From assembly GCF_013702265.1 (NCBI RefSeq), contig NZ_CP059348.1, positions 2,790,001-2,854,000 on the forward strand: a DNA stretch of 64,000 nucleotides, in the 5' to 3' direction. Shown in pieces: positions 45,082 to 51,924 of this stretch; the first letter of the stretch is position 1, and each line of letters opens with the position of its first letter. Position numbers and translations under genes: made by a program. This DNA comes from Providencia rettgeri (lineage in GTDB: Bacteria; Pseudomonadota; Gammaproteobacteria; Enterobacterales; Enterobacteriaceae). The notes beneath the pieces were generated by a model. The model did no database searches and had not been told where the DNA came from. It was given only the letters and a program-made list of their open reading frames with translations.

Positions 45082-45897
45082 ATGAACAGCAAATTAAGTC
45101 ATCAGGTGATAAAAAAAGTTCGCATAGATAAAAATAACCCACATGCGATACTCGATTTAACCTCTAAAGGTCTTATCATCATAGAAAAAGGGGCGATTTT
45201 ATTAGAAACCCCTGCGGCAAATCAAAGCCTGCATGAAGGTGATATTCTCTATCACAAACAGGGATCATACTCGTTTAAAACAGAGAGTAATGCATTAGAC
45301 GGCGAATTCTTATGGATCTCATTGGATGATAAGTTTTTACGCGAGTACTTATCTCACTATGGTTCTCAATTAAGTGAGATCGAGCGCACTGAAAGCGCTG
45401 CAAAAGACATCATTAAATTTACAACAAACCCATTAATTAATGAGTTAAAAAATAGTTTAGAGTCATTTATTCAAACTCAGTACCCGGAAATGATTCTTAA
45501 ATTAAGGATTAATGAGCTACTCTTGTTATTATCCTACAGTGAGCAAGGTGCAACCCTATTGTCCAATTTACGACAACTCAGTAATCGCCAAGCTGAGCGT
45601 TTGCAGACCTTCATGGAAAATAATTATTTAAAAGAGTGGAAGTTAAATGAGTTTGCCAGAACGTTTGGCATGGGCTTAACAACATTCAAAGAGCTATTTC
45701 ATACTGTTTATGCGACATCACCACGTTCTTGGATCAGTGAGAAGCGCATCATGTATGCACATCAATTATTGATAAATACGTCGATGAGTATCGTGGAAGT
45801 TTCTATGGAAGCAGGCTTTTCAAGTCAGTCTTACTTTACTCAAAGCTATCATAGACGCTTTGGTTATACCCCCAGTAGGTCGCGCAAAGCCGCCTAA
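45082..45897 (+). CDS. AraC-family transcription regulator
   Basis: 271 residues: N-terminal cupin-like sensor (GLIIIEKGAILLETP, HEGDILYHKQGSYSF) and C-terminal double helix-turn-helix (WKLNEFARTFGMGLTTFKELFHTVYATSPRSWISEKRIMYAHQLL, then VSMEAGFSSQSYFTQSYHRRFGYTPSRSR). The type resembles ExsA/VirF-like virulence activators, but no type III secretion or pilus genes are in the window. Targets are unknown; neighbours are ygbA and the coiled-coil protein. Confidence 0.85.
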   Translation: MNSKLSHQVIKKVRIDKNNPHAILDLTSKGLIIIEKGAILLETPAANQSLHEGDILYHKQGSYSFKTESNALDGEFLWISLDDKFLREYLSHYGSQLSEIERTESAAKDIIKFTTNPLINELKNSLESFIQTQYPEMILKLRINELLLLLSYSEQGATLLSNLRQLSNRQAERLQTFMENNYLKEWKLNEFARTFGMGLTTFKELFHTVYATSPRSWISEKRIMYAHQLLINTSMSIVEVSMEAGFSSQSYFTQSYHRRFGYTPSRSRKAA

Positions 45898-46041: not shown

Positions 46042-49000
46042 TCAGTTCGCTTGAATCACTTTCAAATCAATAATTGACATCGAATTTGGCGGCACTTCAC
46101 CGGGAATACCGTCTGGGCCATAACCACCTTCAGGCTCAATATAAATTTTGACCATTCCGCCTACCCCCACTTTTTCTACGAACGAGTTCATCGGTGGTGG
46201 AAGTTGATCATAAGGTAACACCATTGGATTTTTCTCTGTATGCATAACGGTCACCTTACCATCGGTGAGTTGTTCACGCATAATTAATGTGATTTTCTTA
46301 TCTTTCACATTTGTAATTGGCGTACCTTTTTGTAAAACCTTATAGTAAGTATAGTTATCTAACTTACTGTATTTCTGCTGTTTTATATCCTGCAGGATCT
46401 TTTGATTCCGCTTTTCATTCTCTTTAGCAATAGTCGCATTATCCGTAGATGGGATTTGGATAATGGTCGGCGTCTTACCTGTAGATGTTTTTTTACTCGC
46501 TCTTAATGCTTCATTCTCTTCACGCAACTGAGTCACGCGCTGATTGAGATCCCTAATTTGCGTTTTCAATCCCTCATCCGTTGAAAATGCTTTCAAAGAT
46601 GCCAGCTCATCTTTTGCTTTCTTCAAACTATCTTGAACACTAGCAAGCTCCAGCTTAGATTTGTTATCCGCCGCTGTTTTTTCATCGAGCTGTTTCTTAA
46701 GTTGAAGCAATTCCTGATCTTTTTTCGAGAGATTCTCTGCATTAAATTTTTCAGCATCTAACTTCAACGCATTCAGTTGGTTGTTTGCTTCTAGCAACTT
46801 TTGCTCGATTTCAGCTTGCTGTTTGTTACGATTGGCAATGTCACTTTCAAGCTTAGCAATCAATGCTTCTTTTTCTTTGGCTTGTGACAACAACTGAGAA
46901 TTTTGAGACTCTAGCTGCTGTTTATCAGACAGTTGCGCTTTTAACGAATCTTGAATGCCTTTATTCTCTTGATCTAACTTGGTTAAAGCTTCTTCTCGGC
47001 CTTTGAGTAAGCTAATTTGCTTATTCAATTCCGCCGTTAATTCTTTGACTTGTAGGTCAGTATCTTTGCCTGCAAGCTCAGTCTGTTTTTCTAATTCAGC
47101 ACGCAGTTTTTGCACTTCAGTATTTGCTTGCGCTAACTGTTTTTTCGCATCCGCATAACTTTGTTCATTCGATGCTAGCTGCGCTTGTAGTTGTGCGTAC
47201 TGATTTTGGCTATCTGCCAGTTGCTTAGCTATTTTTTCATGAGCATTTTGCTGAGTCGCCTGTTGTTTCTTCGCTTCTGCTAACTCAACATCCAGTGCAT
47301 TTTTTTGTACTAACTTGGCAGTTTGCTCAACCAATGTCGCTTGAGCTTTGTCGTTCTGCTGCGATTTTTCAGCGAGTTGAGTCAAGAGCTTCTGATTTTG
47401 CTCAGATAAAGCTTTAACTTGTTTGTCGCTAGCTTGAGCCATCAACACTGCTTTATTTTCCAGCTCTTGCTTCACGTTTTGCAAGTCTATATTAGCCTTA
47501 GCTAGCTGCTGCTTAGAGGTGGCTAATTCAGCTTCTACCGCAGATTTTTGTTTTACTTTATCTATCAGTTGCTGATTCTGTTGTTCAAGCTGCTTAACCG
47601 CATCTTGCTGTTGCTTCAGTGCTAATTGGACATCACTTTTTTGCGTTTGAGCCAGCTTAAGCTCATCCTCACGCTGCTTCAATAAGGCTTCTTGCTGTAA
47701 TAAGTTGGCATTCACAGACTTCAACTGCTCATCCGTATTGCCGGATGACTGCAATTGCTGTTTCGCATCAGATTGTAGTTTGGCAATCTCAGTGGTTAAT
47801 TGCTCGATACGCTGATGAGCATCCGTGACTTGCTTGTCTTTGTCGGCCAACTGCAGCTTCATTTGCTCAGCCAGTTGCTGATTCTGTTGTTCAAGCTGCT
47901 TAACCGCATCTTGCTGTTGCTTCAGTGCGGATTGGACATCACTTTTTTGCGATTGAGCCAGCTTTAACTCATCTTCACGCTGCTTCAGTAAGGCTTCTTG
48001 CTGTACTAAGTTGGCACTCACCGATTTCAACTGCTCATCCGTATTGCCGGATGACTGCAATTGCTGCTTCGCATCAGATTGTAGTTTGGCAATCTCGGAG
48101 GTTAATTGCTCAATGCGCTGATGAGCATCCGTGACTTGCTTGTCTTTGTCGGCAAGTTGTTTTTTCGCATTTGTCGCTTCAATCACGCCATCACTCAGCT
48201 GTTTTTCCAACTGTTTGATAGTGTCTAATGACTGGCTATTTTGTTTGGTAAGGTTATCCAGATTAGCTTGCTTTTCAGCAATCACTTTCTGCGATTTGGT
48301 TAATTCATTGTTCAACCCATCGATAACAGCTTTATTATCAACAGATTTTACAACATTTTGTAATTGCTCAATTTGCAACTTACTTGCTGCAATGTCATCA
48401 CTGAGTTTAGCTATCGTCGTTTGCTTTTCAGTAATGATGCGATTTAATTCAGCAATGTCTTTATTGTAGTTAGTCAGCTTAGTGACTAACTGACTATCAG
48501 TTAACAGCCTATTGTACGAAATAAGCTCACCAACGCCTTGAGCAACACCAAAGCGATACAGATTTTTTAATTGCTGCTGCTCAATGAGTTTTGCCAACTG
48601 AGCCAGATTGACTGAGTTATCAGTCCCTGCTTTCTTCGTGAAACTCGAAGAATATAAGCCAAGAGGATCAATAATGACTTGGTATTTGGCAAAATCTTTC
48701 GCCAAATACTTAGGATTCCATTGACTACCTTGTAGCAAATAGGAAGATGCAGGCTGGTAAGATTGAGACTCAGAAGGCAACGAACAGACGTCGATAACAG
48801 GTTTTTCTGTGCCTGCTACTTGAGCTGGTTCTGTTACTTGAACTGGTGTTGTAGGCTCAACAGGCGTTGATACCGATGCTTTTGTACTTTGAGATTGGGA
48901 TGACGTCACCGCATTCGATGATCGCTGAGCCACCTTTTTCTCTTTAGTGTTCTTTGCTTTACCCGTCGTAACTTGACGGCTTTCTTTCGGCACAGGAACT

Positions 49001-49218
49001 GGCGAAAGAGAGGATAAGACATCATAACCTTGGGCTTGTGATTTAACACTCAGTGGTACTTCGACAGGTCGTGGCTTTGGTTTTTGACCTTCATTTTCAG
49101 ATTGAAGGTAAGTATCAAAGTCATCTATGACATTATTAAAACGCTCCGCATAGGAAGCGGTTGAAAAACATGTCGAAAAAAGTGCCAAAGAGACACAAAG
49201 CCTTAGGTTAAGTCTCAT
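46042..49218 (-). CDS. Giant exported coiled-coil protein with FKBP-like ends
   Basis: 1058 residues. Signal peptide 1-24 (ending ASYAER), a Pro/Thr/Val-rich linker to about 140, an FKBP_N-like dimerisation region near 165-260, a coiled coil rich in Gln, Lys, Leu and Ala to about 915, and an FKBP-type domain near 955-1056 (GGMVKIYIEPEGGYGPDG, PPNSMSIIDLKV). Residues 355-456 and 457-558 are near-identical 102-residue repeats. The FKBP pocket residues (FDNS-type Asp/Phe and the Trp before GL) are missing, so isomerase activity is doubtful. It overlaps the lipoprotein gene by four bases. A periplasmic spanning or tethering role is a guess. Confidence 0.8.
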   Translation of the reverse strand: MRLNLRLCVSLALFSTCFSTASYAERFNNVIDDFDTYLQSENEGQKPKPRPVEVPLSVKSQAQGYDVLSSLSPVPVPKESRQVTTGKAKNTKEKKVAQRSSNAVTSSQSQSTKASVSTPVEPTTPVQVTEPAQVAGTEKPVIDVCSLPSESQSYQPASSYLLQGSQWNPKYLAKDFAKYQVIIDPLGLYSSSFTKKAGTDNSVNLAQLAKLIEQQQLKNLYRFGVAQGVGELISYNRLLTDSQLVTKLTNYNKDIAELNRIITEKQTTIAKLSDDIAASKLQIEQLQNVVKSVDNKAVIDGLNNELTKSQKVIAEKQANLDNLTKQNSQSLDTIKQLEKQLSDGVIEATNAKKQLADKDKQVTDAHQRIEQLTSEIAKLQSDAKQQLQSSGNTDEQLKSVSANLVQQEALLKQREDELKLAQSQKSDVQSALKQQQDAVKQLEQQNQQLAEQMKLQLADKDKQVTDAHQRIEQLTTEIAKLQSDAKQQLQSSGNTDEQLKSVNANLLQQEALLKQREDELKLAQTQKSDVQLALKQQQDAVKQLEQQNQQLIDKVKQKSAVEAELATSKQQLAKANIDLQNVKQELENKAVLMAQASDKQVKALSEQNQKLLTQLAEKSQQNDKAQATLVEQTAKLVQKNALDVELAEAKKQQATQQNAHEKIAKQLADSQNQYAQLQAQLASNEQSYADAKKQLAQANTEVQKLRAELEKQTELAGKDTDLQVKELTAELNKQISLLKGREEALTKLDQENKGIQDSLKAQLSDKQQLESQNSQLLSQAKEKEALIAKLESDIANRNKQQAEIEQKLLEANNQLNALKLDAEKFNAENLSKKDQELLQLKKQLDEKTAADNKSKLELASVQDSLKKAKDELASLKAFSTDEGLKTQIRDLNQRVTQLREENEALRASKKTSTGKTPTIIQIPSTDNATIAKENEKRNQKILQDIKQQKYSKLDNYTYYKVLQKGTPITNVKDKKITLIMREQLTDGKVTVMHTEKNPMVLPYDQLPPPMNSFVEKVGVGGMVKIYIEPEGGYGPDGIPGEVPPNSMSIIDLKVIQAN
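47545..48156 (-). repeat. Two tandem 306-base direct repeats inside the coiled-coil gene
   Basis: Copy 1 is 47851-48156, copy 2 is 47545-47850; each encodes 102 residues starting LADKDKQVTDAHQRIEQLT. Protein copies differ at only a few positions in the first 90, so the duplication is recent or kept uniform by recombination. Confidence 0.92.
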
Positions 49219-49715
49219 AATCCATTAATTTTCTGCAAAGTTGATTCCGTTGATAGCACTGCGTTGTAACGCACCTTAGCACAAAGAACTTTTGTTTTAG
49301 ATTCTATAGCCATTTGCAATAGCTCAATGGTATCTGGGCTAGCAGTTGCTTCGATTTGTTTGTACAGCTGATTAATTTCACTCACTTCTTTAAATGATCC
49401 TACCAGGCGATTATAACTTTCTGGTGATAGCGTTTTCAGTGAACTGAGTTCTTTAATACAAGTATTTAGCGGCGCAACACCTTGCTGCTCAACAGCATTT
49501 GGTGAACGATCTAAAGCATTATTTAAAACATTCTGAGATTCAGGATAAGAATCATCAGCCTTACTATTTTGCTGTGAATTATTCGTTGCTGCTGTGGTGG
49601 CTTGAGAATCAGCTAATGCCGTCTTTTGCGCATTTGGACCAGTGACACAGCCAGAAAGTAAAACCGTGCTTACCGCAAGCAAAGACGCGACATAAAATTT
49701 ATTTTTTAAAAACAT
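49215..49715 (-). CDS. Lipoprotein coupled to the coiled-coil protein
   Basis: 166 residues with a lipobox LLSGC (Cys near residue 23), a low-complexity Ala/Thr/Asn/Gln/Ser linker and a helical C-terminal part with two cysteines (PLNTCIKELSS and KVLCAKVRYN) that could form a disulfide. No known family was recognised. Its stop overlaps the start of the 1058-residue gene by four bases, so both are made together and probably work as a pair in the envelope. Confidence 0.75.
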   Translation of the reverse strand: MFLKNKFYVASLLAVSTVLLSGCVTGPNAQKTALADSQATTAATNNSQQNSKADDSYPESQNVLNNALDRSPNAVEQQGVAPLNTCIKELSSLKTLSPESYNRLVGSFKEVSEINQLYKQIEATASPDTIELLQMAIESKTKVLCAKVRYNAVLSTESTLQKINGL

Positions 49716-50370
49716 ATATTTACCTTACCAGTACTTTTCTTCGCTATTATTATGATGTCCTAGAAACCTAGTGTAAGCTAAAAACTCGCTATTTTCTATA
49801 TAGCCGAATAGAGAAATAGAGACTTCTCATAAATCTTATGCATTTTTATTTTGTGCCAATTTAGTTTTACAACCACGGAATTGTTATTTCAGTACATTAA
49901 TACTCATATGTCTTTAAATAAGATATCGCATACTTGTGTTTATTGGTGGCTCTTGCACATTAATTAACATCAAAAACACATTTTATTAGTAATAAATCAA
50001 AATAAACTCTGCTTAATCATCCTATCTTTCAGGTTTTTATAAACTTAGTCTAATTAATCAACTTAGAATCATGGTATTACAAACAGGTACATTTACTCAC
50101 TCAAAAATTGAAAATACTCACATTTTGGAATATCCCAATGAAATGATAAAGGCTACTCCGATGATAAAGATAGGTATTGAGTAAAATAAAATTCTACACT
50201 TATTAAAGTAGTCAATGAATAGCAGTTATCTTAAAAAGATATTGAGCTTAAATTAACGCATAACGTGATGTAACGCAGATTTTTATTTTTATACTGGAAA
50301 GGTACAACAAATTAATTATGGGTTTGAATGAGGGAATTAAATAAAAATATCATGATTAATTGCTAATATT
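49716..50370. other. AT-rich gene-free stretch before the lipoprotein gene
   Basis: About 650 bases of AT-rich sequence between the lipoprotein start and the lysS end; it must contain the lipoprotein promoter. No operator or RNA was recognised. Confidence 0.4.
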
Positions 50371-50395
50371 CATGCCCAGTTATTAACTGGGCATG
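50371..50395 (-). terminator. Hairpin behind lysS
   Basis: CATGCCCAGTT, 3-base loop, AACTGGGCATG is a perfect 11-base stem, 12 bases after the lysS stop. Only a few T residues follow on the minus strand. Confidence 0.6.
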
Positions 50396-50406
50396 AAAAG
50401 CAAAGA

Positions 50407-51924
50407 TTAAGCTTTGCTAGGACGTAATGCAGGGAATAGAATTACATCACGAATAGTATGGCTATTGGTAAATAGCATGACCATGCGGTCAATACCAATG
50501 CCTAAACCTGCTGTTGGTGGTAAACCGTGTTCTAATGCGGTCACGTAATCTTCGTCGTAGAACATCGCTTCGTCGTCACCTTCGTCTTTCTGACGAACTT
50601 GCTCAGCAAAACGTTCTGCTTGGTCTTCTGCGTCATTTAACTCAGAGAAACCGTTACCGATTTCACGACCACCGATGAAGAATTCGAAGCGGTCTGTAAT
50701 GAATGGGTTGTCATCATTACGGCGTGCTAAAGGAGAAACTTCAGCTGGATATTCAGTGATAAAGGTCGGCTGAATTAAGTGGCTTTCAGCAACTTCTTCA
50801 AAGATTTCGCACTGAACACGACCTAAGCCCCAGCTCTTCTCAATCTTGATACCGATGGACTGAGCAATCGCAACCGCTTTATCCATATCATCCAGATCAG
50901 CAACGTTAGTTTCTGGACGGTATTTGCAGATAGCTTCTTTCATGGTCATTTTGGTAAATGGCTTACCAAAATCGAACTCTTGCTCACCGTATTTAACAAC
51001 GGTATTGCCTAATACTTTCTGCGTTAAGATACGGAACAAGTCTTCAGTCAGCACAATCAGGTCACGGTAATCGGCATACGCCATATACAGTTCCATCATC
51101 GTGAATTCTGGGTTATGGCGTGGAGATAAACCTTCGTTACGGAAGTTACGGTTGATTTCGAATACACGCTCAAAACCACCTACAACTAAGCGCTTCAGAT
51201 ACAGTTCTGGCGCAATACGCAGATACATATCGATATCTAATGCATTATGATGCGTAACAAATGGACGCGCAGAAGCACCACCAGGAATAACTTGCATCAT
51301 TGGGGTTTCTACTTCCATGAATCCATGCTCAACCATGAAGTTACGAACTTCAGCTAAGATCTTAGAACGGATGATGAAAGTGTTACGAGACTCGTCGTTA
51401 GCAATCAGGTCAAGGTAACGTTGACGATAACGTGTCTCTTGGTCTGATAAACCGTGGAATTTGTCTGGTAATGGACGCAGAGCTTTAGTCAACAAACGAA
51501 CTTCATGACAGTGAACGGTCAATTCGCCTGTTTTAGTTTTAAATAAACGACCTTTAGCGCCTAAAATGTCACCTAAGTCCCATTTTTTAAACTGCTCGTT
51601 GTAGATGCCTTCTGGCAGATCATCACGTGAAACGTAAATCTGAATACGGCCACCAACATCTTGCAATGTTGCAAATGACGCTTTACCCATGATACGACGA
51701 GTCATCATACGACCCGCGATAGTCACTTCAATGTTCAGGTCTTCCAGCTCTTCAGCTGATTTTTCACCAAATTCAGCGTGAAGCTTATCGGAGACATTTT
51801 CACGACGAAAATCATTTGGGAATGGAATACCCTGTTCGCGCAACGCAACCAGTTTTTCTTTACGGGCTTTGAGTTCGTTATTTAAATCGGGAGCTTGTTC
51901 TGCACCCTGTTGCTCTTGAGACAT
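50407..51924 (-). CDS. lysS: Lysyl-tRNA synthetase
   Basis: Class II synthetase that charges tRNA-Lys; 505 residues as in E. coli. Anticodon-binding OB fold at the N-terminus ([24 protein letters not shown]), then class II motifs: [43 protein letters not shown], and [14 protein letters not shown]. It lies 7 bases behind prfB, the usual enterobacterial prfB-lysS operon. Confidence 0.98.

Follow-up and report, generated by a model that had tools for sequence, protein, structure and literature searches.

A 64,000-nucleotide stretch of the Providencia rettgeri genome (assembly GCF_013702265.1, contig NZ_CP059348.1, positions 2,790,001 to 2,854,000; 4.02 Mb in a single contig), hereafter the window, encodes on its reverse strand a 166-residue lipoprotein (49215-49715) and, overlapping its end by 4 bases (49215-49218), a giant 1058-residue coiled-coil protein terminating in an FKBP-like domain (46042-49218). 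The open reading frames (ORFs) bear out the pair as the first-pass annotation had described it: the lipoprotein has a lipobox of the form LSGC with the lipidated cysteine at position 23, and the larger protein starts with a Sec-type signal peptide (residues 1-24; 49147-49218) recognized by eye, with a presumed cleavage site. The remainder of the coil protein, all encoded on the same strand, comprises a helix at the mature N-terminus bearing the motif FNxVIxDFDxY, a candidate docking element found by motif scan (residues 25-42; 49093-49146; block predicted local distance difference test score, or pLDDT, 46-54), a low-confidence and probably disordered linker delimited by the structure model and a profile test (residues 44-240; 48499-49089), a coiled coil defined by a proline-free run, the model, and its periodicity (residues 241-909; 46492-48498), and an FKBP fold that has lost peptidyl-prolyl isomerase (PPIase) residues, delimited by Pfam, phmmer, the model, and structural alignment (residues 925-1058; 46045-46446).

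The two proteins were each modeled singly with AlphaFold. For the coil protein, residues 23-42 form a helix, residues 44-244 have block pLDDT values of 23-45, and residues from about 241 to 909 are helical with short breaks (block pLDDT 34-84). As the model as a whole is poor (mean pLDDT 58, predicted template-modeling score 0.25, 8 sequences), we trust only its FKBP part as a fold. That part (residues 931-1058, block pLDDT 76-92) encloses a Pfam FKBP_C match at residues 972-1053 (23.2 bits, with the cut-off at 21.1), the coil protein recovers E. coli FkpA in phmmer (E 8.8e-7), and a second-look structural alignment of the Foldseek matches superposes the head on FkpA with Z 15.2 (root-mean-square deviation 3.6-3.7 over 132-133 residues), rows matching long helices in the same alignment reaching up to Z 13.5. 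The C-terminal FKBP-like region anticipated in the first-pass annotation is thus borne out by sequence and structure prediction alike, but the FKBP_N-like region that it had placed ahead of the coil is not seen. We rejected this region on the basis of its lack of a Pfam match, the low model confidence given above, and the response to an FKBP_N model built from six relatives, which yields at most 1.9 bits on the window protein versus 97.3 and 90.8 on two others. The same model places FKBP_N after the coil, joined to FKBP_C, in two relatives (loci L076 and L077), and the order coil-FKBP_N-FKBP_C is found by Pfam in all six relatives scanned from outside the Providencia/Proteus group (L118, L125, L133, L136, L140, and L145). 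Because relatives carry FKBP_N after the coil and joined to FKBP_C, the latter as in FkpA, the window lineage seems to have lost it.

Conservation of the catalytic site was assessed in an alignment of 55 FKBP domains, namely that of the window, 18 from its genus, and 36 others. In every one of these the positions that we take to be Y26, F36, D37, and W59 in FKBP12 numbering are replaced (by M, T, V, and M in the window) and I56 has become proline, with Y82 kept; as reference, two ordinary FKBPs encoded in the genome of the window were aligned, and both keep all seven residues. As judged from this alignment, the head has lost its PPIase active-site residues and is probably non-catalytic. The ratio of nonsynonymous to synonymous substitution rates (dN/dS) is 0.01-0.10 on the FKBP domain in four of five gene pairs compared, the fifth having saturated dS, and 0.14-0.32 on the lipoprotein in four gene pairs, values that place both genes under purifying selection. 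Since the isomerase residues are lost and yet purifying selection is strong, the head is likely to have been kept for work other than isomerization. One candidate for such work is that of a periplasmic holdase, a non-catalytic FkpA/Mip-like chaperone for unfolded outer-membrane or fimbrial proteins that is tethered by the lipoprotein and whose length is nearly neutral. The FkpA-like domain order of all six relatives scanned by Pfam agrees with it, as do the matches of four of them to the FkpA model NF008150 (E 5e-26 to 3e-36, below cut-off), the existence beside the lipoprotein of short forms of 409 and 346 residues, and the fimbrial neighbors described below; but neutral length alone leaves the linked lipoprotein unexplained and no client is known, making this an improbable account of the pair.

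The coil, which the first-pass annotation had put at about 650 residues, measures approximately 670. Besides the helical model, it is supported by the absence of proline from residues 186-916 and by a hydrophobic period of 3.5 (power 0.71, the highest of 200 shuffles reaching 0.47); three of five coils tested (those of the window, genome G017, and P. mirabilis) exceed all their shuffles at this period. Within the coil lie two tandem copies of a unit with a 306-bp period, of which 282 bp were compared (47872-48153 and 47566-47847, reverse strand) and found identical at 266 of 282 bases. Among the 16 unbroken genes of the genus, window included, total length ranges from 1058 to 1903 residues and the longest proline-free run from 726 to 1568 residues, the unit being 102 residues long in the window and three relatives and 165 residues long in the other twelve genes. 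Both periods leave a remainder of 4 modulo 7, which corresponds to one heptad stutter per coil unit. Tandem units account for much of the difference in coil length across the genus. The one pair of genomes compared within the species illustrates this at the DNA level, with three 306-bp copies in the second genome versus two in the window and long aligned blocks that are 98.7 and 99.6% identical. Other coil genes of the genus are split (L057, L058, L067, and L071) or run off contigs (L061 and L064), which may be real or may reflect assembly error in the repeats, and the coil of genome G019 contains 5 unknown residues.

The periplasm is about 20-30 nm wide, and helices rise by 0.15 nm per residue. 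The 670 helical residues of the window coil, if continuous, would therefore extend for about 100 nm, or several periplasm widths, and the coils of the genus, if extended, for about 100 to 230 nm. Because the extended coil is several times the periplasm and length varies more than twofold within one genus, a simple strut across the periplasm, as the first-pass annotation had envisaged, is unfit. An alternative that takes the extended length at face value is a surface stalk, with the coil exported across the outer membrane, the head facing outward, the units setting its height, and the lipoprotein acting as anchor or export partner. In-frame tandem units with conserved ends, the one-unit difference between two same-species genomes, and adhesin-type neighbors elsewhere would suit such a structure. 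Furthermore, excerpts of PubMed Central (PMC) articles describe length-variable periscope proteins of bacterial surfaces (PMC8201768) and, in the β-barrel assembly machinery (BAM) of Bacteroidota, an FKBP-type isomerase as an outer-surface lipoprotein (PMC12578637). The pair, however, encodes no export apparatus, and the autotransporter relatives considered below point to the periplasm. We regard a stalk, like the holdase, as unlikely though still a rival to be reckoned with.

We next turn to the lipoprotein. Lipoproteins with Asp next to the lipobox Cys stay in the inner membrane; the window protein has V at this position, and the residue is never Asp in the 97 of 102 family ORFs that were readable by pattern, the other 5 giving no lipobox. 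The window lipoprotein is accordingly predicted to be an outer-membrane lipoprotein. Its residues 81-164 (49224-49475, reverse strand) are modeled as a domain of three helices (block pLDDT 64-86). In a 16-row alignment the invariant residues are the lipidated Cys23, Cys86, Leu93, Lys140, and Cys145, and a disulfide between Cys86 and Cys145 within the helical domain is possible. None of the family members scanned gave a Pfam or NCBIfam match above cut-off. The top Foldseek row, a FAT domain at E 0.25, was not used as evidence.

The lipoprotein is present, and the 4-nucleotide overlap kept, in 22 of 22 genomes of the same genus. In all, 54 pairs of lipoprotein and FKBP genes on the same strand and at most 3.5 kb apart were found among the 90 loci examined, with the exact 4-nucleotide overlap in 36, a gap of -1 to 100 nucleotides in 13, a 70-nucleotide overlap in one, and a separation of more than 1 kb in 4. 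Our lipoprotein model (A1), built from 16 members, finds the protein in 111 of the 392 genomes sampled from the host's bacterial family and in 54 of its 154 sampled genera, both partner classes taken together; in an order-wide draw of 295 genomes, 11 match at E 1e-6, all but 1 of which belong to this family. Conversely, 81 strong pseudo-FKBP matches in the family (pseudo-FKBP model A2, E 2.5e-22 or better) include 65 adjoined by a lipoprotein of this family: 59 have a listed lipoprotein at most 9 kb upstream, and of the other 22, of which 13 were read and 9 were not, 6 are accompanied by a lipoprotein that is weaker or displaced, another 6 lack one in the fetched stretch, and one lies at a contig edge. 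Weaker sublineages (for example, L127, L131, L144, L147, L167, and L269) fall outside the 81, scoring near ordinary FkpA or below the line. A rule that the lipoprotein always lies upstream of such an FKBP gene was rejected, given the six exceptions and locus L272, where it sits on the far side of the FKBP gene. The first-pass annotation had named homologues without the lipoprotein in unrelated contexts as a finding that would speak against the pair; these are for the most part not seen, the six exceptions including four adjoined by usher genes and two without. The closest named relative of the FKBP part is in P. alcalifaciens DSM 30120 (94% over 97 residues), followed in order by those of Moellerella, Proteus, Atlantibacter, Lelliottia, and Serratia. 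A DNA search with the window pair or one relative's pair found no match in 20,395 E. coli records, from which remote homologues could escape, and a pattern scan of viral contigs for the FKBP part likewise found no relative. The pair is hence conserved across many related enteric bacteria, and conserved adjacency, the 4-nucleotide overlap, secretion signals, and purifying selection together uphold the proposal of a genetically coupled envelope pair; in agreement with its being unrecognized, we found no description of it in the open-access PMC literature.

Elsewhere in the lipoprotein family, the gene that follows encodes an inverse autotransporter adhesin of the intimin/invasin type. We sorted 102 lipoproteins from 90 loci into an FKBP/coil class (64, including hand-assigned loci in which the FKBP part is split off or beyond the contig edge), an inverse autotransporter class (23), and a class with no partner of either type within the scored distance, which was kept in the tree (15). 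On a 96-row lipoprotein tree, built from few columns and with several long branches, partner labels need 14 changes versus a shuffled mean of 32, so that partner type tracks the lipoprotein phylogeny. For the FKBP class 5 changes are needed, and since well-supported branches force 3 of these, either partner exchange was a repeated event or this part of the tree is in error. Of the 23 autotransporter-class lipoproteins, 15 lie on the same strand and at most 700 nucleotides upstream of an inverse autotransporter, in 15 of 16 loci, and the other 8 do not. As separate observations on the family, several autotransporter-type lipoprotein copies occur on the chromosome and a 120-kb replicon of a Providencia-genus genome, beside its coil-FKBP pair (L078, genome G011); the Arsenophonus nasoniae plasmid paIh1 has lipoproteins of the family on both sides of an inverse autotransporter gene (L083, 579-8261); and an IncF E. 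coli plasmid (AP027849.1; L079, 8674-11403) carries two tandem relatives near a gene that by eye is LuxR/EAL-like, with neither autotransporter nor FKBP found in the stretch read. The lipoprotein query also weakly matches 75 Escherichia plasmid records.

The two partner types share a position, just after the signal peptide, at which most of their members carry a brief motif specific to the class. Among 68 FKBP-class ORFs, 28 have FNxVIxDFDxY, including all 22 genus loci outside the window, 28 have xPxLL, 3 have LLxxLxxE, and 9 have none, 4 of the last being downstream pieces of split genes. In the lipoprotein-linked inverse autotransporters a motif like MxETxxGLxALM occupies this position in 11 of the 14 ORFs with a visible signal peptide (2 of 16 being dropped for want of one; shuffle rate 0.0004), and one of the three misses, L159, is the downstream part of a split gene, the motif being present in the upstream part. 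Where no lipoprotein lies in the fetched stretch, which covers about 1.5 kb to each side of the barrel, only 3 of 25 autotransporter ORFs have the motif, all three in genomes that carry family lipoproteins elsewhere; the comparison is weakened by the choice of controls, which are the best-scoring barrels of 26 lipoprotein-holding genomes, are not random, and include near-copies. Likewise, Pfam detects LysM in 0 of 10 lipoprotein-linked autotransporter starts and in 9 of 10 selected starts without a lipoprotein, 5 of them above cut-off, a contrast again weakened in that these are 10 of the 25 controls and 8 of them were picked by our own LysM model, which was built from two controls and for which the Pfam result was substituted. 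In the available excerpt of PMC5595812 the LysM domain of YeeJ is said to bind peptidoglycan and help localization, and on this basis the region of inverse autotransporters before the barrel is taken as periplasmic. Because this region bears the lipoprotein-linked motif, the lipoprotein would face the periplasm, which speaks against the surface stalk. The motif, the LysM pattern, and the role of LysM in YeeJ lead us to propose a docking interaction, on the periplasmic side, in which the lipoprotein receives the motif. A more far-reaching version, in which the family is an exchangeable periplasmic docking platform, lineage-specific for the mature N-terminal helix of an autotransporter or pseudo-FKBP partner, stands in for the peptidoglycan-binding LysM domain in the former, and in Providencia serves a partner whose reach of about 100-230 nm, if extended, is set by repeats, is as a joint claim doubtful.

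Some FKBP-class loci adjoin fimbrial genes. Outside the genus, 10 of 42 such loci contain a fimbrial usher versus an expectation of 1.7 based on 26 such genomes, which together carry 285 ushers in 124.5 Mb, and 4 of the ushers at the loci were checked with Pfam; the enrichment is weaker with the densest genome as background (expected 4.5, P 0.012), and the loci are not independent, some coming from one genome or genus. No ushers were found in the 16 autotransporter-class and 13 neither-class loci. At two loci (L113, 8151-9581, and L139, 4753-7026), two or three regulator-like genes stand between the fimbrial genes and the lipoprotein-FKBP pair; one of these regulators was confirmed as LuxR-type by Pfam and the rest were recognized by eye.

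In light of the above, we tentatively favor a reading of the pair as an arm of variable length that is docked by the lipoprotein, bears a head for binding rather than catalysis, and is used in the assembly of surface adhesins or of the envelope. The lipoprotein would be anchored in the outer membrane, facing the periplasm, and capture the short mature N-terminal helix of its co-translated partner. The coil would act as the arm, its reach changing as tandem units are gained or lost, and would carry a head that binds, rather than isomerizes, its client. As sister lipoproteins precede inverse autotransporters and some pseudo-FKBPs adjoin chaperone-usher fimbriae, the client or purpose most likely lies in the assembly or positioning of surface adhesins.

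Apart from the selection of the autotransporter controls and the limits on the usher enrichment, several points weigh against this reading. The binding, localization, and function that it proposes are mostly extrapolated from sequence and models. Coils of up to 230 nm when extended have no obvious fit in the periplasm, and in two of the coils tested, those of genomes G010 and G024, the period-3.5 power does not rise above the highest shuffle. The three-copy gene from the same species has an in-frame stop after codon 62, so that this strain may do without the long protein, unless the stop is a base-calling error. Confidence in the lipoprotein model is low (mean pLDDT 62.7), and its fold has no Foldseek match in the PDB at E 0.001 or better, the best being at E 0.25. 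The FKBP-class motifs differ among themselves, and xPxLL is loose enough to be met in about 3% of sequences by chance. Moreover, shared ancestry within a single autotransporter subgroup, rather than docking, may account for the motif and LysM patterns. No ushers occur in the 22 Providencia-genus loci, and six of the 81 pseudo-FKBP loci (L266, L268, L270, L276, L278, and L279) show no lipoprotein in the sequence retrieved around them.

The surroundings of the window pair are of a different kind from those with ushers or autotransporters. Upstream lie genes that we take, from their sequences, to be lysS, prfB, and recJ, and converging on the coil gene is an AraC-type regulator with a Pfam ExsA_N domain (45082-45897, forward strand). 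A relative of this regulator stands near the pair in five of six clustered Providencia/Proteus-type loci, L160 being without it; a functional link to the pair is only suggested. No RNA elements were found at gathering threshold, and the four sigma-70-like sites in 49600-50500, versus 5.5 expected, are uninformative. That the Providencia/Proteus locus is flanked by housekeeping genes and the AraC regulator, with no fimbrial or autotransporter neighbors seen, would agree with a further alternative, in which the coil is an envelope spacer or lateral filament, lying along the periplasm or bundled, that organizes the outer membrane or peptidoglycan and has no link to adhesins. The great length of the coil is in its favor as well, but the spread in coil length across the genus, which exceeds twofold, the fimbrial and autotransporter context of relatives, and the lack of any peptidoglycan-binding domain detected by Pfam in the window pair make it highly improbable.

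Should the favored reading of a docked arm hold, it would bring to light a lipoprotein family whose scanned members match no Pfam or NCBIfam model above cut-off, and which has two alternative partner types and occurs in 54 of 154 genera sampled, a concrete docking motif, and a set of FKBP folds shorn of their catalytic residues; it would also pose a clear question, namely whether a very long and fast-changing coiled coil is accommodated in so narrow a periplasm or lies on the exterior.

As far as our comparisons go, the pair corresponds in full to none of the known systems considered. With FkpA and Mip it shares secretion and the FKBP_C fold plus the terminal portion of the helix before it (by the alignment to FkpA at Z 15.2), and the six relatives from outside the Providencia/Proteus group also share FKBP_N directly before FKBP_C; the window pseudo-FKBP differs in having neither FKBP_N nor the isomerase residues, and in possessing hundreds of coil residues and a partner lipoprotein. 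Inverse autotransporter loci have a barrel where the window lipoprotein has a coil-FKBP partner, and accordingly neither window protein matches the IAT_beta barrel (PF11924) in Pfam. The excerpted description of the Salmonella Sen2 operon (PMC3008723, Tsai et al. 2010) has a lipoprotein gene before an intimin/invasin-type gene, a likeness in gene order to the autotransporter class of the family, and the portion available of the account of IatB/SinH and sinI (PMC6714894) gives no link to this lipoprotein family. Periscope proteins, going by the excerpt of PMC8201768, resemble the coil protein in tandem units of high identity with conserved ends. They are also alike in the in-frame gain or loss of units between strains, here one 306-bp unit in one comparison involving a gene with an early stop; the window units differ in being coil rather than globular domains. 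The window head further aligns at Z 12.1 with chain 6h3i_B of the type 9 translocon (structures 6h3i/6h3j), which we presume to be an FKBP. Such Bacteroidota FKBP subunits belong to another phylum, are to our knowledge not coil proteins, and give no sign in sequence of orthology to the window head. One relative weakly matches the BamJ model (E 4.4e-7, 30.3 bits versus a cut-off of 100), and BamJ, in the excerpted account of the Bacteroidota BAM (PMC12578637), offers the parallel of an FKBP fold placed in an outer-membrane complex.

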